This document shows positions 2,843-19,487 of a stretch of DNA of 20,365 bases, one piece after another. Each line of letters starts with the position of its first letter. Position 1 is the stretch's first letter. The notes under the pieces were generated by a model. That model saw only the letters and a list, made by a program, of their open reading frames with translations. It did not search any database and was not told the DNA's origin. Source of the stretch: a virus; the IMG/VR virus record IMGVR_UViG_3300018424_000341, positions 1 through 20,365 of that record; one strand, 5' to 3'. Both the position numbers and the translations under genes were made by a program.

Positions 2843-3856
2843 ATGGCTAACCTTTTTAAAAGGGCCGCATGTTTTACTGACATTCATTACGGTCTTAAAC
2901 AAAACAGTAGGCAACATTTGAAAGATTGTCACGATTTCATCGATTGGTTTATTGCGGAATCGCATGCCAGGGGTGCAGAAACGTGCTTCTTTTTAGGTGA
3001 CTGGCATCATCATAGAGCTAGTGTGAATGTTGCTACTATGAATGCCACCATTAAAGATCTTAAAAAATTAAACGACAATTTTGAAAAAGTGTATTTTATT
3101 ACTGGTAATCATGATTTATACTACAGAGAAAAACGTGATCTAAACAGTGTAGAGTTTGCTAGAGATCTTGAAAATTTTGTAATGATAGATGAATGGTTTT
3201 GTGAAGATGGTGTTGCTATTATCCCATGGCTAGTAGGTGACGAACATAAAAAACTAAACAAGTTAGATTGCAAATACATGTTTGGTCATTTTGAGTTACC
3301 TTATTTTAAAATGAATGCAATGGTAGAAATGCCAGATCATGGTGGTGTAAAAGCAAGTGATTTAACTAATCCAGAATATGTGTTTAGTGGTCACTTTCAC
3401 AAACGCCAATATAAAGGCAACATACATTATATTGGCAATGCTTTCCCACACAACTATGCAGATGCTGGCGATAATGAACGTGGTGCTATGTTCCTGGAAT
3501 GGGGTGGCGAACCTCAATATGTGAACTGGGAAGAATGTCCAAAATTTATAATGACTGGCCTTAAATCGTTGCTAGATAATCCAGATGTTCTAGATGCAAA
3601 AACACATGCTCGAGTAAAACTTGATATTGGTATCAGTTATGAAGAAGCAAACTTTATCAGAGAAACGTTTGCAGAAAAATATAATGTTAGAGAAATACAA
3701 CTTATTCCTGTTAAAGAGGAAGAAGAAATATATGAGGGTACAGAAATAAAGTTTGAAAGTGTTGATCAAATTGTGATACAACAATTAGAAACCATAGAAA
3801 GTAATACTGTTGAAACTAATAAACTAATTGAAATTTATCGAGAGTTAGAAGTATAA
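2843..3856 (+). CDS. gp47: Recombination endonuclease subunit gp47 (Mre11-like)
   Basis: A 337-residue calcineurin-like metallophosphoesterase. The metal-site motifs are in order: D13-x-H15 (TDIHYG), GD53WHHH, GN89HD, GHFE at about residue 149, and GH184FH186. It forms the nuclease of the gp46/gp47 complex, which resects DNA ends for recombination-dependent replication and for degrading host DNA. Length matches T4 gp47 (339). It begins 5 bases after gene 55; no strong ribosome site is visible, so it may be coupled to 55. Its stop overlaps the gene 46 start (TAATG). The C-terminal 60 residues are rich in E and I, plausibly the helical part that contacts the gp46 coiled coil. Confidence 0.95.
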   Translation: MANLFKRAACFTDIHYGLKQNSRQHLKDCHDFIDWFIAESHARGAETCFFLGDWHHHRASVNVATMNATIKDLKKLNDNFEKVYFITGNHDLYYREKRDLNSVEFARDLENFVMIDEWFCEDGVAIIPWLVGDEHKKLNKLDCKYMFGHFELPYFKMNAMVEMPDHGGVKASDLTNPEYVFSGHFHKRQYKGNIHYIGNAFPHNYADAGDNERGAMFLEWGGEPQYVNWEECPKFIMTGLKSLLDNPDVLDAKTHARVKLDIGISYEEANFIRETFAEKYNVREIQLIPVKEEEEIYEGTEIKFESVDQIVIQQLETIESNTVETNKLIEIYRELEV

Positions 3857-5634
3857 TGCTGACTATTAAAAATGTAAGTGCAAAAAACTTTATGAGTATA
3901 GGTAATAATACTCAAGCAGTAAACTTTAATACTGAATCTTTAACATTAGTATTGGGGCATAATTTAGATCTTGGAGGTGATGGTAGTAGAAACGGTACAG
4001 GTAAAACTACAATTATCAACGCACTAAGTTATGCACTATACGGTGATGCTTTAACAAACATTCGCAAAGACAATCTCATAAACAAAACAAATGGTAAAGG
4101 CATGATTGTTTCTGTAGATTTTGAGATCAATGGAATTGAGTATCGTATTGAACGTGGAAGACGACCAAATGTTTTGAGATTTTTTATAAACGGTGCTGAA
4201 AATGCTGATGATGAACAACAAGGCGACAGCAGAGAAACACAAAAAGAAATAGAAAAAATAATTGGCTTCCCTCACAATATGTTCAAGCATTTAATTGCTC
4301 TAAATACATATACTGAACCTTTCCTTAGCATGAAAACAAACGATCAACGTGATATGATCGAGCAACTATTAGGTATTACTGAAATTAGTGCAAAAGCAGA
4401 AGTGCTTAAAGAAAAATTAAAAGAAACCAGAGATAGTATCAAAGAAGAAGAGTTGCGTATTAGTGCTGTTAAAAACAGTAACGAAAGAGTAGGTAAGAAC
4501 ATTGTTGAGATTGAAAATCGTAGCAAACTTTGGACTAAAAACAAACAAGATAAAATCACTGAGCTACAACAAAGTTTAGATGTTTTACAACAAACTGACA
4601 TTGATCAAGAATTAAAAAATCACAAAATTATTACAGAAGTAAACGAAAAATATTTAACAATAAAAGGCTTACAAAGTGAGCAAACTAATTTGCAAAGTAG
4701 TTTACTAAGAAGCGATAACAACTTAGAAACATTACAACTTAATATACAAAAAGCACAAGAAGGTGTTTGCCCTACTTGCGAACAAAGTACTGCACACCTA
4801 GACACACACGAAGCCTACACACAGGACTTGCAAGATAAACTAAAAGTAGAAGAAGAATATAACAGTGAACTAAATAGTAAAGTAAAAACAATTCAGTCAA
4901 AGATTGATGACTTTGGTGAGTTGCCGGAAACACCAATTACTTTTTATAATAATTTAGAAGATGCATTACAGCACAGGCATAATGTTGAAACGTTACAATC
5001 TCAAATAGAAGAAAAAACAAACGAAGTAAATCCATATATTGAACAAATTGATAGTCTAAAAAAGACTGCATTGGAAGAGATAGATTACGAACTTATAAAT
5101 GATTTAACCTTTTTAAAAGAACATCAAGAATTTTTACATAAGTTGCTTACCAGCAAAGACAGTTTTATTCGTAAAAAGATTATAGATCAGAATTTACAAT
5201 ATTTAAACTATAGGTTAAATCATTACTTAGACAAGTTAGGATTACCACATGATGTTAAATTTAACAGTGACTTGTCAGTAGATATTACAGAATACGGTAG
5301 AGATTTAGATTTTGATAACTTGAGCAGAGGTGAACGTAATAGACTTATACTCGGTATGAGTTGGGCATTCAGAGACATTTATGAAAGTTTAAATCAACCA
5401 ATGAATTTGATGTGTATAGACGAACTGGTAGACAGTGGCATGGATACCACTGGTGTTGAAAATGCATTGGCAGTTCTTAAGAAGATGGGTCGAGAGTCCA
5501 AGAAAAATGTGTTCCTTATTTCGCACAAAGAAGAGTTACAAGGTAGAGTAAACAATGTACTATATGTTGTCAAGGAGGGAGGATTTACTTCATATTCGAA
5601 TGATATTGAAATCCTTGACTCGGAGAATGGATGA
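3856..5634 (+). CDS. gp46: Recombination endonuclease subunit gp46 (Rad50/SbcC-like ATPase)
   Basis: A 592-residue SMC/Rad50-type ATPase. Walker A is at 43-51 (GSRNGTGKT), followed by a coiled-coil arm (about 170-300), a zinc hook at C305-P-T-C308, the returning coiled coil (about 310-455), the ABC signature at 489-493 (LSRGE) and Walker B with CIDE at 520-523, then VFLISHKEEL with the switch histidine. Length is close to T4 gp46 (560). It works with gp47 in DNA-end resection. The start overlaps the gp47 stop by one base and the stop overlaps the next gene by ATGA, so 47-46-endonuclease are likely translated as a unit. All ATPase motifs are intact. Confidence 0.95.
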   Translation: MLTIKNVSAKNFMSIGNNTQAVNFNTESLTLVLGHNLDLGGDGSRNGTGKTTIINALSYALYGDALTNIRKDNLINKTNGKGMIVSVDFEINGIEYRIERGRRPNVLRFFINGAENADDEQQGDSRETQKEIEKIIGFPHNMFKHLIALNTYTEPFLSMKTNDQRDMIEQLLGITEISAKAEVLKEKLKETRDSIKEEELRISAVKNSNERVGKNIVEIENRSKLWTKNKQDKITELQQSLDVLQQTDIDQELKNHKIITEVNEKYLTIKGLQSEQTNLQSSLLRSDNNLETLQLNIQKAQEGVCPTCEQSTAHLDTHEAYTQDLQDKLKVEEEYNSELNSKVKTIQSKIDDFGELPETPITFYNNLEDALQHRHNVETLQSQIEEKTNEVNPYIEQIDSLKKTALEEIDYELINDLTFLKEHQEFLHKLLTSKDSFIRKKIIDQNLQYLNYRLNHYLDKLGLPHDVKFNSDLSVDITEYGRDLDFDNLSRGERNRLILGMSWAFRDIYESLNQPMNLMCIDELVDSGMDTTGVENALAVLKKMGRESKKNVFLISHKEELQGRVNNVLYVVKEGGFTSYSNDIEILDSENG

Positions 5635-6059
5635 GTGCTGATTGGACATATAAAGGTAAAAAAATAGATGTTATACCCGAAGAATACGAAGGTTTTGTGT
5701 ACCTTATCACTAATAAGACTAATGGCAAAAAATATATCGGTAAAAAACTTGCTAGGTTCAAAACAACCAAACCACCCTTAAAAGGCAAAAAGAACAAACG
5801 TCGAGGTACCAAAGAAAGCGACTGGCGTACATATTGGGGTAGTAGTGATCATTTGATTGAGGATGTAGCAAATTTAGGTGAGAATAACTTTACCAGAGAA
5901 ATATTAGAGTTATGTACGACTAGGGGTGTAATGAGCTACATAGAAGCAGAATTACAATTCAAACACAAAGTATTACTATCTGATGATTATTACAATGGAA
6001 TTATCAACTGTCGTATAGGTGGTTCAAAAATTCTTAAAGAAAGTTTGAAAGATAGATAA
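5631..6059 (+). CDS. GIY-YIG family endonuclease
   Basis: A 142-residue protein. The GIY-YIG pattern is seen as GFVY (21-24), ten residues, then YIG (35-37) in FVYLITNKTNGKKYIGKK. A very basic segment follows (about 40-60, KTTKPPLKGKKNKRR), then DWRTYWGSS, a central NNFTREIL strand, and the YIEAELQFKH helix carrying the likely catalytic Glu near 105. No separate DNA-binding module follows the domain, unlike the longer Seg homing enzymes. The ATG lies in an ATGA overlap with the gene 46 stop, so it is the last gene of the recombination operon. Whether it acts in recombination or is a captured homing enzyme cannot be told. No intron or interrupted gene is visible beside it. Confidence 0.8.
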   Translation: MSADWTYKGKKIDVIPEEYEGFVYLITNKTNGKKYIGKKLARFKTTKPPLKGKKNKRRGTKESDWRTYWGSSDHLIEDVANLGENNFTREILELCTTRGVMSYIEAELQFKHKVLLSDDYYNGIINCRIGGSKILKESLKDR

Positions 6060-6060
6060 C

Positions 6061-6400
6061 TATTTTTCGCAAGGCACTTCATAGACACCAAGTCAGACTA
6101 ACACAGGCAACACATAGGCTCCACACCACCCCGCCGAGGCAGATAATATCGGTATCCTTGACAATCCGTTAAACACGGTGCGAGAATCTGGATTGTGGAC
6201 GGCAAGATACAAAAACGACACAGTATTAAAAAGATGTAGGCTCTGAGAAAAAGCAACCTACGAGTCAGTGTAACTAAACTCTACAAGGTTATACAGACTT
6301 CCGTGAGATTCGTGACGGTAGTGTATGGGGACAGAAGGCTCACCGGTTCCTAGTAGCACCCGAGTTAGAGATGGCGATGCTCATCATGATGACATCATTT
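6061..6400 (+). ncRNA. Candidate structured non-coding RNA (unknown class)
   Basis: No reading frame of useful size exists here on either strand, GC is about 47 % by my count (flanking genes clearly lower), and several stems can be drawn on the top strand: a long hairpin 6152-6210 (GTATC/GATAC and TTG/CAA below ACAATCC 6161-6167 with GGATTGT 6190-6196); GTAGG 6236-6240 with CCTAC 6257-6261; an 11-bp stem 6263-6274/6288-6299 (AGTC/GACT and GTGTAAC/GTTATAC around one A-A mismatch); CCGT 6301-6304 with ACGG 6315-6318. It follows the GIY-YIG gene directly and could be made as the 3' end of that transcript. I compared it by eye with tmRNA, RNase P RNA and group I intron cores and found no match. 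Strand and ends are uncertain. Confidence 0.45.
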
Positions 6401-6422
6401 TTTTCACCCGGCAACGGGTGAA
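6381..6422 (+). terminator. Overlapping palindromes, U7 run and 8-bp GCAA-loop hairpin; probable terminator region
   Basis: TCATCATGATGA (6381-6392) is a perfect palindrome, followed by CATCAT and seven T (to 6404), a plausible rho-independent stop for the rightward 55-47-46 transcript. Directly after is a perfect hairpin: TTCACCCG (6403-6410), GNRA-type loop GCAA, CGGGTGAA (6415-6422). On the other strand the second hairpin is followed by A rather than T, so it would not be a classical leftward terminator; it may protect a 3' end. Confidence 0.5.
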
Positions 6423-6515
6423 TTATGGCTCAACTTTCATGATAACGTTTAGATCTAAAGATCTAAAAATTTCTTACAAGTGAATAAGTGAGTGAAACGA
6501 ACGTATGAACGTAGT
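6423..6515. repeat. Short iterated repeats in the non-coding gap
   Basis: AGATCTAA is present twice in tandem (6451-6458, 6459-6466), the first copy lying in the palindrome TTTAGATCTAAA (6448-6459), and GAACGTA occurs twice (6499-6505, 6507-6513). No gene or further signal is seen in this part. The repeats may be a protein-binding site or slippage remnants. Confidence 0.35.
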
Positions 6516-6536
6516 AAGAAAAGACACGAAGTGTCT
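6516..6536 (-). terminator. Rho-independent terminator for the two leftward oxygenase-like genes
   Basis: On the reverse strand, AGACAC (6536-6531), triloop TTC, GTGTCT (6527-6522) and then TTTCTT form a 6-bp hairpin with a U-rich tail. It overlaps the TAG stop (6537-6535) of the leftward gene, which is typical of compact phage genomes. Confidence 0.6.
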
Positions 6537-7056
6537 ATAATATGGTATCTAAGTATTCTACTGTGTCGTTGTAAGTTTTTCTAATGTTTAACGTAAACAG
6601 TTTGGTAAGTTGATTTATTTCTTTATGATCGCATCCATGTTTTTTAGTAACATCTAAAACTAAAATTTGTTGTGGGTGAATATATTTGTTGTGTGTGGGA
6701 TCTTCATGAATAATGTAAACAGGAAAATTATTTAGGTTGAAAATTATATTGGATTTTCTAGTAAATGGATTTACCCAACCAGTTAAAAAATCTTGGTGTA
6801 ATTGCACAATCTGATTAGGTCTGACATGTTCAAATCCTATACTGTGTTCTGGCAGTATTTCTATAGGGTTTAGAATTTCATTTACTTTATCAATACATGT
6901 TAAATCTTTGAGCATCAAGATATCCTGAGTCATGTCTGGAGTGTCATTACGATGCATAAAATATCCATGATCAGCCGGAGTAGTGTTTAATACTTCTTCC
7001 TCAAGGGATAATAATTCATCTACGTTGTATTTGAAATTATAAATTTTACTAAACAT
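6535..7056 (-). CDS. Putative 2-oxoglutarate/Fe(II)-dependent oxygenase-like protein
   Basis: A 173-residue protein of the double-stranded beta-helix type by motif. H87-x-D89 (VQLHQDF) fits the first two iron ligands, H140 (KKHGCDH) the distal histidine, and R159 (FTLNIRK) the 2-oxoglutarate carboxylate contact. The spacings are those expected of the 2OG-Fe(II) superfamily. Around H140 and R159 it aligns with the neighbouring leftward gene (LH/KHG, then LxINL/FTLNI), so the two look like diverged paralogues. Its ATG is 8 bases inside the end of that gene, so they are co-expressed. Such oxygenases are frequent in marine phages, but substrates are mostly unknown; nucleic-acid or protein hydroxylation is possible. 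Motif-level assignment only. Confidence 0.6.
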   Translation of the reverse strand: MFSKIYNFKYNVDELLSLEEEVLNTTPADHGYFMHRNDTPDMTQDILMLKDLTCIDKVNEILNPIEILPEHSIGFEHVRPNQIVQLHQDFLTGWVNPFTRKSNIIFNLNNFPVYIIHEDPTHNKYIHPQQILVLDVTKKHGCDHKEINQLTKLFTLNIRKTYNDTVEYLDTIL

Positions 7057-7821: not shown

Positions 7822-8119
7822 GATATTACAAGAAGTAACTGATTGGGGCGACTACCCAGTTAAAAATGGAATTTATCATGTCAACAGTGCTGGACAACTT
7901 GTTCAGCACAATGACGTTGTATTTAAAAACCCGATTAAGCAATTCAGCAAGTCTTACAGGAAGTTTGTTAAAATAGGCGAACGCCCTGAAGAGTTTAGCA
8001 AAAATGTTATTGTAGTCAATGGTTCAAAAGGCAATACTTACACAATTGAAGATGGTAAGTGTAGTTGCCCTGGTTTTACTTTTAGGGGAGATTGTAAGCA
8101 TGTTAAAGAACATTGTTAG
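7814..8119 (+). CDS. Small SWIM-type zinc-finger protein
   Basis: About 101 residues from a GTG at 7814, chosen because AGGTGG (7803-7808) sits 5 bases upstream; another in-frame GTG at 7805 would overlap that site. The C-terminus is a SWIM-like zinc motif, C83-x-C85-x8-C94-x-H96 (GKCSCPGFTFRGDCKH), preceded by NTYTIEDGK, the usual beta-hairpin entry of SWIM domains. The N-terminal part (VTDWGDYPVKNGIYHVNSAGQLV) looks like a small beta domain, followed by a basic helix (KQFSKSYRKFVK). SWIM fingers bind DNA or partner proteins. The start overlaps the previous stop and its end overlaps the lipoprotein start by 20 bases, so the three genes are coupled. The molecular role is unknown. Confidence 0.75.
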   Translation: MIEILQEVTDWGDYPVKNGIYHVNSAGQLVQHNDVVFKNPIKQFSKSYRKFVKIGERPEEFSKNVIVVNGSKGNTYTIEDGKCSCPGFTFRGDCKHVKEHC

Positions 8120-10442
8120 TTTATTTTTAGTATTGTCTGTGATTGGCTGTGCAAGTGGCGGGGGTTCAGCAGGTATTGCAACAACCACGGTTGCACCTCC
8201 TCCTACCACAACCACTACCAATACTGACAAACGATATCAATTTGATGCATTTTCAGATCAGTACACTGAAGCAACCAGCAAACTAGGATATAACAAAGTC
8301 ACCTATCAAGTAGGCGAGTTTAATAATACTCAGTGGGTAAATGGCAAATACACTGTGGAAGATTTTTCATTTTTGCAGGTTGTTATAGACGGCAGTCACG
8401 GTGGTAAAGATCAAAATGATCCAAACAGTGACGAGTATTCAGAACCAGGTAATTGGATGACCAATGCATCTGTGGTTATAGAAAATGATATCAATCAAGA
8501 CGGCCACAGCGATTTTGTGATTTACATGCAGACGTTTGGTGATAGAAATACATTACCGGGTATGCGAATGTTACAATTTGTAAATGACGGGGAAGGACAT
8601 TTCAAATTAGACTGTAGTGTGTTTGAAAACAATGTGTGTCCTATTGTGTTTGGGGAAGGTTCTGTAATGAATAATCTTGGTTGGTGGCACAACGAAGAAG
8701 CACCTGTACAAGAATACAATATGGGCATAGCACATCAATACGACTTGAACGGCGATGGCAACAAAGACATTTTTAATGTTAGTCAGTTGTGGCTTACTGA
8801 TAGTGGAAAGTTTGTTGACTCCCATACCAATCTACCTGATTTTATGTTTGAAAACTTAAATCCTGATGGTGTTGACGTAGGTATTTTTGTGCATGATCAT
8901 GCAGTCGGTGATCTCAATGGTGACGGATTTAATGATATTTTTATGCCTAATACCACACCAGTGTATTCACAAAATAATGGCTACATGTTTTTTATGCTAA
9001 ACGACGGCAAAGGAAACTTTAAGAACACCAGTTTTAAAGTTGGTCATGCCGGCCATTTTGCAACGTCTACTACTATTGGAGATTTTGACAATGACGGATA
9101 CGGTGATATTGTTTTGGGTTGGAGTAACAATGCATACAAGAATTTAGGTGGCAACAGTGTTGGTGGAATTTACTGGGGTAATAGTGACTCTGATTATACC
9201 AAAGACTACACAGCACTGCCTGCAGGGTATTACGACCAGAACATAGCATTTGATGTACAGTCTATGGATTTTAATAACGATGGATTGTTAGACTTAGTTT
9301 TTGCAAACACTAATGCTGATCCTTACTATCAAGGACATGTATTACAACTAATAGAAAATCTTGGTAATAGACAGTTTAGCCACTTCAAGTTTTTTGACGA
9401 AGGTGCAGAAACTAGTAACCTTGGAGTTGGGCATATTTATATACTAGACTTTGATCATGATGGCAACAATGATATTTTTGTAGGCCCTTACACTGATGCA
9501 TATGTTTTAAAAAATAACGGTGATGGCACATTTGTAAAATACAATCAATTTGCTGTACCCGAAAATAATCCAGATATGTCATTGCTGTTTCCAGTAGAAG
9601 TAGATGGCAAGTACGAATACGATTTTATTGGAATGGATATTTTGTCCATGAGTGAAACACAAACTGTTACAAACTTTTTTATCAGTTTAGATCCCCCGGC
9701 ACAATTACAAGAAATGCATGATGAATTGTTTGACAAATCTATAAATCATGTTCAATCAATATTTGAAAACAAGACTATGTTTCATAACATTAAAAACACT
9801 TCGCTGTCAGATAGTGTATTTTTTGTAAACAATGAACAAAATAATATTGCAGGGTACTCTCATAACTTTGAAAACTTTGGTATTACTTTTGGACAAACAG
9901 ATGATGGCGGCTTGTTATATTTAGACAGACAGCATGACGGATATCATTATGGTATTGGTTATTTTAACAACAGTGTAGACTCATTGAATGTTGGTAAATG
10001 GTATGGTACTGGTACAGCAACAATTGATTTTGAGACTATAAATGCATTTGCTGAAACATTTATACCTTTAAACTCAAATATTTTTATAACATCGGGTGTT
10101 GCATTGTTTAACACAAAAGTGAAAGGCTTTACTGAACAAAATAGTCAATACAATATTTCTGTACAAGATTTTACAATGAACGATTTAGAATTGTACACTG
10201 ATATTACAGGATACAAAAGTACTAAATTTGGAACCACAATGTTAAGTCTAGGACTTAGTTCATATTACAGTTTGGGCAACACTGACATTGTGTGGGACGG
10301 TGGTTTAGTTTCTAAGTTTAAAGAATCTGAGCAAGTTGCTAGAGCAACTCTTACACATACATACAATATTTTTTATGCTAAGGCAACGTTCAGCTCGTTT
10401 GATAGTGACACGTTTGAAATAGGATTTAATTTAAGTTTTTAA
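8100..10442 (+). CDS. FG-GAP/VCBS-repeat lipoprotein with outer-membrane-like C-terminus
   Basis: A 780-residue protein. The ATG at 8100 is chosen (the frame is open from 8019) because it opens a lipoprotein signal: K3, hydrophobic core, lipobox VIGC with lipidated C17, then ASGGG; Ala at +2 favours the outer membrane. GGGGAG lies about 9 bases upstream. A T/P-rich linker follows (about 27-42). Six calcium-binding type DxNxDGxxD motifs begin near residues 130, 215, 271, 328, 390 and 450, spaced mostly 56-62 apart, as in FG-GAP/VCBS beta-propellers. The last 180 residues have alternating polar/hydrophobic strands and end in Phe (FEIGFNLSF), the hallmark of outer-membrane beta-barrels. It is last in the early operon and not next to virion genes on its strand. 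Role unknown: host-surface change or superinfection block is inferred. Its stop abuts the convergent gene 51-like stop with no gap. Confidence 0.85.
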   Translation: MLKNIVSLFLVLSVIGCASGGGSAGIATTTVAPPPTTTTTNTDKRYQFDAFSDQYTEATSKLGYNKVTYQVGEFNNTQWVNGKYTVEDFSFLQVVIDGSHGGKDQNDPNSDEYSEPGNWMTNASVVIENDINQDGHSDFVIYMQTFGDRNTLPGMRMLQFVNDGEGHFKLDCSVFENNVCPIVFGEGSVMNNLGWWHNEEAPVQEYNMGIAHQYDLNGDGNKDIFNVSQLWLTDSGKFVDSHTNLPDFMFENLNPDGVDVGIFVHDHAVGDLNGDGFNDIFMPNTTPVYSQNNGYMFFMLNDGKGNFKNTSFKVGHAGHFATSTTIGDFDNDGYGDIVLGWSNNAYKNLGGNSVGGIYWGNSDSDYTKDYTALPAGYYDQNIAFDVQSMDFNNDGLLDLVFANTNADPYYQGHVLQLIENLGNRQFSHFKFFDEGAETSNLGVGHIYILDFDHDGNNDIFVGPYTDAYVLKNNGDGTFVKYNQFAVPENNPDMSLLFPVEVDGKYEYDFIGMDILSMSETQTVTNFFISLDPPAQLQEMHDELFDKSINHVQSIFENKTMFHNIKNTSLSDSVFFVNNEQNNIAGYSHNFENFGITFGQTDDGGLLYLDRQHDGYHYGIGYFNNSVDSLNVGKWYGTGTATIDFETINAFAETFIPLNSNIFITSGVALFNTKVKGFTEQNSQYNISVQDFTMNDLELYTDITGYKSTKFGTTMLSLGLSSYYSLGNTDIVWDGGLVSKFKESEQVARATLTHTYNIFYAKATFSSFDSDTFEIGFNLSF

Positions 10443-18686: not shown

Positions 18687-19487
18687 ATGTCAGATCGCAG
18701 TAAATTAGAACAAGTTCTAGAACTTCTACTTGCGGAAGATAACGAGCGTGCCGAAGAGCTACTTCACGAATATGTCGTCGAAACTGCTCGAGCAGAGTAC
18801 GAGCGTATCTTAGATGAAGATGAAGTAGTTAGTGAAGAATCTGAAGAAGAAGCAGTTGAAGAAGCAGAAGAATCAGAAGAAGAAGCAGTCGAAGAGGCTG
18901 AAGAATCTGAAGAAGAGGCTGTTGAAGAAGATGCTGTTGACGAAGTTGTAGATTTCGCAGACCCAGAGCAAGATTTTGTATCCGACGTAGAAGAAGCAGA
19001 CGATGATATCGAAAGCGACGAAGTCGGTGAAGAAGAAGGCGAAGGCGAAGACGAAGATCTTGAAGACAAAGTTGATTCTTTAGAAGATGAACTTGAAGAT
19101 TTAAGAGCTGAATTCGAAAAATTATTAGCAGACGAAGACGGTGATGACGGCGAAGAAGCAGAAATGGATGCAGACATGGACATGGAAATGGACATGGAAC
19201 CTGAAATGGAAGAAGAATCAGTCGAATATGACCTAGACGAAGAAGTTGTTGAAGAAGAAGACGAAGATGTTGTTGAAGAAGCAACTAAATTGTCTGATAA
19301 CGTTGCAGAGCCAAAAGGCGAAGTACACAACGATAAGTCACCTTTGTCAAGCAAGCCAAAACCAACTGTAGTTAGCGGCGCTGGTCAACCAGTTAAAGCA
19401 AACGACGGTAGCGAAGGCGTTAAAGGCGAATCAGCAAAAGACCACACACCATCAGATAATATCAAAGTAGAGCCTAAAACGGCTTAA
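18687..19487 (+). CDS. Extremely acidic repeat protein, probable prohead core component
   Basis: A 266-residue protein with a clear start (AGGAG 6 bases before ATG). Residues 1-45 form a normal helical domain (KLEQVLELLLAEDNERAEELLHEYVVETARAEYERIL). Residues 50-82 are three copies of an 11-residue repeat EESEEEAVEEA; 83-205 continue as a D/E-rich low-complexity region with a likely coiled coil (DLEDKVDSLEDELEDLRAEFEKLL) and a DMDMEMDME run. The last 65 residues are a less acidic, K/P/S-rich tail. In T4, acidic core proteins gp67 and gp68 lie between 20 and 21, fill the prohead scaffold and are cleaved by gp21; position and charge support that role. No direct homology to gp68 was recognised. 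Confidence 0.7.
   Translation: MSDRSKLEQVLELLLAEDNERAEELLHEYVVETARAEYERILDEDEVVSEESEEEAVEEAEESEEEAVEEAEESEEEAVEEDAVDEVVDFADPEQDFVSDVEEADDDIESDEVGEEEGEGEDEDLEDKVDSLEDELEDLRAEFEKLLADEDGDDGEEAEMDADMDMEMDMEPEMEEESVEYDLDEEVVEEEDEDVVEEATKLSDNVAEPKGEVHNDKSPLSSKPKPTVVSGAGQPVKANDGSEGVKGESAKDHTPSDNIKVEPKTA
18834..18932 (+). repeat. Three tandem 33-bp repeats inside the acidic protein gene
   Basis: Units 18834-18866, 18867-18899 and 18900-18932 each encode EESEEEAVEEA or EESEEEAVEED, with synonymous differences between units (tct/tca, gca/gct). Repeat number may vary between relatives. Confidence 0.85.

Follow-up and report, generated by a model that had tools for sequence, protein, structure and literature searches.

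The window analysed here, a 20,365-base IMG/VR record taken whole (IMGVR_UViG_3300018424_000341), encodes a large, structured, pseudoknotted RNA of about 480 bases that occurs widely among uncultured marine T4-like phages. The presence of a structured RNA at this spot is nearly certain; its function is inferred only. As delimited by nhmmer and blastn homologues of up to ~480 nt and by the pair counts of the full-length alignment (A3), the RNA gene (6055..6540, plus strand, as for each of its elements below) comprises a promoter-like box, a CA-rich leader, 13 helices, two pseudoknots, and a duplicated element (R1 and R2). The RNA belongs with the Rfam family RF01718 and greatly extends that fragment, and we propose a Polynucleobacter-1 superfamily to hold both. 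Large structured RNAs of this superfamily apparently occupy a fixed place in marine T4-like phages, and the part covered by Rfam is a mere 141 nt from a distant branch.

The genes around the spot form a T4-like set, including a gp47-like metallophosphoesterase (2843-3856) and a gp46-like SMC/AAA protein (3856-5634), followed by a gene for a 142-aa SegE-like GIY-YIG endonuclease (5631..6059, plus strand; Pfam PF19835, E 1.1e-35), which adjoins the RNA in nearly all homologous loci. An earlier sequence-only reading of the window had singled out 6061-6422 as a non-coding stretch of raised GC (~47%) carrying a candidate structured RNA without resemblance to tRNA or tmRNA, and had named covariation and Rfam searches as the checks. 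These points were upheld: no convincing gene lies inside the stretch, its GC content is 46.4% vs. 36.6% window-wide, covariation is strong, and scores of contigs conserve the RNA. ARAGORN and Rfam find neither tRNA nor tmRNA in the window, no Rfam family reaches its gathering score there, and nothing sensible appears at E ≤ 10; for introns, Rfam gives no group I or group II match in the window, and none was found in 11 divergent loci. The MFE of 6061-6422 relative to shuffled sequence provides no folding signal by itself (z -0.04 for the plus strand and 0.12 for the minus strand); the stems are raised above chance by conservation and covariation in relatives, not by single-sequence folding.

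The fold rests on two alignments. In A3 (32 distinct sequences), the 13 helices and 82 pairs, with the two pseudoknots included, have 93.9% of cells paired, and at 53 of the 82 pairs both positions have changed. The covariation score of 0.373 compares with 0.147 in shuffles (0 of 500 reached the observed value) and ≤0.081 with pairing partners slid. The core alignment (A1; 34 sequences, excluding those ≥90% identical) covers six helices (two of them the pseudoknots) and 38 pairs, with 98.3% of cells paired, both-side changes in 27 of the 38 pairs, and a score of 0.422 (0.176 in shuffles, with 0 of 500 reaching it; ≤0.106 with partners slid). The fold was derived from the same alignments that were scored, which biases it in its favour relative to the slid control, and the shuffles leave relatedness among the sequences in place; yet the compensatory changes are many and diverse.

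The CA-rich 5' leader (6070-6117) contains short units (GACACCAAGTCA and GGCACACA(T) among them) whose number varies, and its length differs between phages (e.g., tandem GGCATACAC in L041). The 5' domain helix (TCCACA/TGTGGA; 6120-6125 / 6194-6199), for which the four inner pairs were counted, has 100% of counted cells paired and two of four pairs changed on both sides (A3 helix 1), and a hairpin at 6133-6137 / 6149-6153 has 90.6% of cells paired, the pair 6134-6152 being CG in 22, UA in 8, and GC in 2 sequences (A3 helix 2). The two weakest helices in A3 are a hairpin with mid pairs that are non-canonical in most members (6162-6169 / 6175-6182; 67.2% paired, seven of eight pairs changed on both sides; A3 helix 3), and a conserved stem (6206-6210 / 6223-6227; 100% of cells paired; A3 helix 4) that is nearly invariant and thus constitutes weak evidence. 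Within the core, a stem closing the loop CTCTGAGAAAAAGCAA (6236-6240 / 6257-6261; compensatory change in four of five pairs; A1 helix 1) precedes the 11-pair stem with one mismatch, which the earlier reading had correctly recognised (6263-6274 / 6288-6299; compensatory change in 10 of 11 pairs, 97.3% of cells paired; A1 helix 2). Pseudoknot PK1 joins 6279-6283 with 6366-6370 (compensatory change in four of five pairs, 93.5% of cells paired; A1 helix 3), and pseudoknot PK2 (GTGAG with CTCAC) joins 6303-6307 with 6339-6343, its 3' arm lying in the loop of the stem 6327-6351 (100% paired, three of five pairs compensatory; A1 helix 4). That stem (6327-6332 / 6346-6351; A1 helix 6) and another formed by 6316-6318 and 6321-6323 with 6357-6359 and 6360-6362 (A1 helix 5) are each 100% paired, with three of six pairs compensatory. 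A stem between 6301-6303 and 6316-6318 was considered and dropped, because compensatory changes favour the pairing of 6316-6318 with 6360-6362.

The sequence-only reading had also taken a run of seven T and a GCAA-loop hairpin as the end of the RNA. Both are present (T run, 6398-6404; perfect 8-bp GCAA-loop hairpin, 6403..6422, with 90.3% of cells paired and four of eight pairs compensatory; A3 helix 11), but they do not form its end: the T run precedes the hairpin and lies inside the RNA, and therefore is not a terminator end, and conserved structure continues through a 3' domain stem (6470-6477 / 6514-6521; seven of eight pairs compensatory; A3 helix 12) to a covarying final hairpin at 6522-6536 (6522-6527 / 6531-6536; four of six pairs compensatory; A3 helix 13). 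The 3' limit of the RNA is past 6422, at about 6536-6540.

Relatives were located by searching IMG/VR with the gp46-like protein and retaining 80 loci. By blastn with window positions 6061-6560, 74 of the 80 loci and the window's own locus have a match, and the six that do not (L003, L009, L010, L012, L016, and L049) stop before or just at the start of the RNA, so that every related contig reaching the spot has an RNA homologue at the same place. A gapped pattern from the RNA alone recovered at least 119 stretches in IMG/VR, and a profile search recovered the RNA from 187 of the first 197 loci, the exceptions being the same six short loci, three phage records, and a chance MAG match. The loci are partly non-independent, as several represent the same contig twice.

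No true relative was found among isolates when the window RNA and five homologues (L048, L037, L249, L233, and L238) were compared by blastn with 50,697 phage records. One search gave two short matches, and a 31-base blastn match in the T-even vs gene (many records) was rejected as chance. The core model has no match in Melnitz, HTVC008M, phiM19, or S-SRM01. Melnitz, an OM43 phage (PMC9004378), encodes a GIY protein with 70% identity followed by a gap of only 148 bases, and the RNA is absent there by both DNA and model search. In bacterial genomes, the only hit of a 20-base gapped pattern lies in a Clostridia MAG, where the RNA itself has no match. No description of the RNA was found in the open literature on large phage RNAs, marine structured RNAs, or GIY-YIG with non-coding RNA, most subscription journals being outside the scope of that search.

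Among known RNA systems, HEARO (HNH endonuclease-associated RNA), the IscB omega RNA, is likewise a structured RNA adjoining an endonuclease gene; unlike HEARO, however, the neighbour of the window RNA is GIY-YIG and not IscB/HNH, there is no guide match in the flanks, and the HEARO model (RF02033) fails to match the window at E ≤ 10. The suggestion made in the earlier reading, that this could be a smaller GOLLD or ROOL relative, is unsupported, since neither model (RF02032 and RF03087, respectively) matches the window at E ≤ 10; for ROOL this negative is weak, as control genomes gave no match either. What the window RNA has in common with these two is being large, ornate, and non-coding (PMC12286853). 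The two-piece tmRNA of marine myophages such as Melnitz (PMC9004378) is another large pseudoknotted RNA in related phages, but neither ARAGORN nor Rfam detects a tmRNA, with its tRNA-like domain and tag frame, in the window.

The closest connection is to Polynucleobacter-1, which is RF01718 in Rfam, 141 nt in length and of unknown function, listed in a table of Weinberg 2010 (PMC2864571). When the Melnitz GIY protein served as query, 80 loci were retained, of which 78 were new; in 65 of these, GIY is followed by ≥350 bases, and a single blastn cluster takes in 51 of those 65. With the core model, seven distant members are clear (E 9.7e-7 to 3.5e-4) and a further three have E ~0.013, these E-values being rough. 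In L238 (1465-1611), Rfam reports RF01718 right after GIY (107.8 bits), and all nine IMG/VR stretches with the RF01718 signature are preceded by a SegE-like GIY gene and followed by an R1-hairpin-R2 domain. A model of the 3' domain, built from 15 sequences with no RF01718 type among them, matches nine of nine RF01718-type loci (E 8.6e-8 to 5.5e-4), and has no match in the GIY loci tested from RNA-less groups. It also matches beside 40 of the 80 GIY relatives of a further scan (E ≤ 0.013), which gave four extra weak matches in place (L364, L366, L381, and L382) and, on the upstream side of GIY, another four that are partial. The topology of PK2 was compared in ten hand-chosen sequences from seven branches: the arms, of eight different sequences, are complementary in 10 of 10, and their order relative to the hairpin stem is constant, with the L215, L233, and L262 types left unfitted.

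Thus, like Polynucleobacter-1, the window RNA has a SegE-like GIY gene directly upstream, the same R1-hairpin-R2 3' domain, and (by string comparison) PK2 within a hairpin loop; unlike Polynucleobacter-1, it has a different version of the central domain. The core model has no match in RF01718-type or L230-type phages, and neither the window (at E ≤ 10) nor any of the relatives tested is matched by the RF01718 model. These comparisons show RF01718 to be a mere piece of a longer RNA from a distant branch. In L238 and L316-L324, RF01718 lies within a phage RNA of ~600 nt with GIY-YIG upstream, and the Rfam entry could be extended. The suggestion that the window represents a new class holds, with a single reservation: the window has no Rfam match, but Rfam already includes, as RF01718, a piece of one of the distant branches.

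The strongest column signal in the alignment is identity, not complementarity, and involves two elements, R1 (TCATGATGAC; 6384..6393) and R2 (TCATGATAAC; 6437..6446), with the layout NNN-TGAT-G-NN (R1) and NNN-TGAT-A-NN (R2) on either side of the GCAA hairpin, NNN having six values. Within each of 55 sequences, R1 equals R2 at bases 1-7 and base 9 (55/55) and, bar a single T/C, at base 10 (54/55), and base 8 is constantly G in R1 and A in R2 (55/55). The sequence of R differs between phages, though both copies within one phage agree. Sequences ≤430 bases and identical ones had been removed beforehand (from 75 to 66 to 61), and rows L063, L002, L004, L018, and L041 were left out as divergent or truncated. 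Distant members share the R1-hairpin-R2 layout, as judged from 18 pair types with 15 distinct 7-mers; these were collected by hand because an automatic pick erred in 10 of 47 loci (L260, L323, L251, L319, L321, L231, L317, L229, L230, and L232, which were read by eye or omitted). On average over these types, 6.94 of seven positions match within a molecule vs. 3.71 across types, and of the 13 differences between copies in the 8-mers, 12 are A/G and one is A/T. In a model-made alignment of 37 distinct sequences, identity at two R column pairs is 0.97, vs. 0.56 and 0.71 expected. The direct repeats are 46-72 nt apart with the hairpin between them; in L362 and L342, R was read by eye as GGAACAAGT and GGCAAGT, respectively, twice each. 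Pairing between R1 and R2, a local R1 hairpin, palindromic kissing, and a short reading frame with tandem stops were each weighed by eye and rejected, as variants disrupt them. The RNA displays one short, fast-changing sequence in two copies, probably as a means of recognising an unknown partner; that R1 equals R2 within the molecule across many changes is a rare and testable sign of an RNA reading a variable partner.

Searches for that partner covered both complement and copy of R. No 10-mer complement occurs in the RNA loci except at the element itself, eight long contigs gave no consistent match, and shorter R words in the RNA and flanks are not enriched relative to the words of other phages. 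No complementary column to R was found inside the RNA alignment, which points to a partner in trans. In the best controlled of these searches, for positions that change in step with R in seven contigs (~580 kb total), only R1 and R2 themselves were recovered (56 coincidences vs. 0-20 with shuffled assignments); the seven contigs are incomplete, and non-alignable regions fell outside this search. Once found, the partner of R would show the role of both the window RNA and RF01718 in infection.

The RNA gene begins with a promoter-like box (GATAACTA; 6055..6062) that overlaps the GIY stop codon. The box, [N]ATAA[CG]TA, is found in 73 of 92 distinct upstream stretches (those from truncated contigs being counted as misses) vs. 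6 of 1060 background windows, and it resembles the T4 late promoter, TATAAATA. The conserved ATAACTA box is likely the start signal of the RNA, and suggests T4-type late or middle transcription; because of the overlap with the stop codon, part of its conservation may be coding. Among seven printed loci in which DNA is inserted between GIY and the RNA, the box is kept in four and absent in three. Just after GIY in L230 and L257, a sigma70-like promoter was noted by eye upstream of the RNA (TTGACA ~17 bases before TATATT or similar).

The GIY gene is directly upstream on the same strand in 160 of the 187 RNA loci, and upstream on the same strand behind an insert in 17; the remaining 10 end before it, and no RNA locus among the 187 has upstream DNA without GIY. 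An ORF between GIY and the RNA is antisense in L092 and L143, and others were judged by eye as IMP dehydrogenase-like (L156), HNH-like (L150), and methyltransferase-like (L041). Antisense insert ORFs in L092, L143, and L148 are by eye of the 2OG-oxygenase type, with two in tandem in L148. That the box persists in four of the seven loci with inserts, and that the intervening ORF is antisense in L092 and L143, shows the RNA to be more than just the 3' UTR of GIY. In L362 (1950-2480) and L342 (2180-2480), the RNA instead lies upstream of the GIY gene, and in one clade the GIY-RNA pair is inverted relative to gp46 while the relative orientation of the pair is kept. The fetched DNA of 39 of the 40 RNA-positive loci from the further GIY scan includes gp46, so that the RNA has a single syntenic home, lying between gp46 and a baseplate-hub-type gene; GIY linkage alone is therefore no proof of joint function.

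The explanation we prefer, if only tentatively, is a trans-acting large structured non-coding RNA of T4-like marine phages, independently transcribed, in which R1 and R2 are two equivalent recognition elements for one phage-variable partner; trans action and recognition are inferred, without transcript data. By this mechanism, the stretch ~6055-6536 (plus strand) would be transcribed on its own, the RNA would act in trans, and its folded body would present R1 and R2 to a single partner that changes between phages. The copies differ almost only by A/G, both of which pair with U, so that a nucleic-acid partner is slightly favoured over a protein dimer. Against this reading, 10 bases are short for a trans target, and no partner has been found. 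The lack of a complementary nucleic-acid partner, and identical elements duplicated around a hairpin, would also be expected if R1 and R2 were each a site for one subunit of a dimeric phage or host protein, with the RNA as a protein sponge or scaffold; we regard this as unlikely, given that R varies at several bases between related phages, including by transversions, which is unusual for a protein site, and that the copy differences are almost all A/G. A strand switch between the copies (polymerase slippage, ribosome bypass, or strand annealing) could keep R1 equal to R2 with no outside partner at all, consistent with direct repeats at such spacing around a hairpin and with the failed partner searches; the fixed G/A mismatch within the repeat in 55/55 would be odd, and the frame between copies is not kept (by eye), which leaves this explanation very improbable. 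Very little also speaks for a ribozyme with R1 and R2 as substrate-binding arms: the core is pseudoknotted and has highly conserved loops (e.g., GAGAAAAAGCAAC), but there is no match to any Rfam ribozyme or intron family.

Two further explanations turn on the neighbouring gene. The RNA might bind, guide, or restrain the SegE-like GIY-YIG as an RNP, R1 and R2 being its recognition segments. The gene is present upstream on the same strand wherever the 187 RNA loci reach it, remains linked where the RNA precedes it (L362 and L342), and keeps its orientation relative to the RNA on inversion; however, with nearly all loci (39/40) in one syntenic home, synteny alone might account for the linkage, the GIY gene of Melnitz and related phages has no such RNA beside it, and R matches in the flanks are not above chance, so that we consider an RNP quite unlikely. 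A cis element, i.e., a 3' UTR or a processing or termination structure of the recombination/GIY operon, accords with the position of the RNA directly 3' of the GIY stop codon in most loci and with its terminal hairpin, but is made rather doubtful by the antisense (L092 and L143) and other (L156, L150, and L041) intervening ORFs, by the loci in which the RNA is upstream of GIY, and by two pseudoknots that far exceed the needs of a terminator. To return to trans recognition by R1 and R2, its broadest extension would be a widespread superfamily of pseudoknotted phage RNAs that target via a duplicated, fast-evolving address of 7-10 bases, possibly with the GIY-YIG nuclease, as an RNA-addressed effector of an undescribed kind; we offer this as speculation that is rather unlikely to hold.

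Other features of the window include a 12-nt perfect inverted repeat with one arm in the RNA and the other shortly past its end (6214-6225 / 6559-6570; separated by 333 nt), and an 807-aa protein (8019-10442) with FG-GAP repeats (Pfam PF13517), unusual in a phage contig. An ORF at 18687-19487 encodes a 266-aa product that is extremely acidic and repetitive (EESEEEAVEEAE...).
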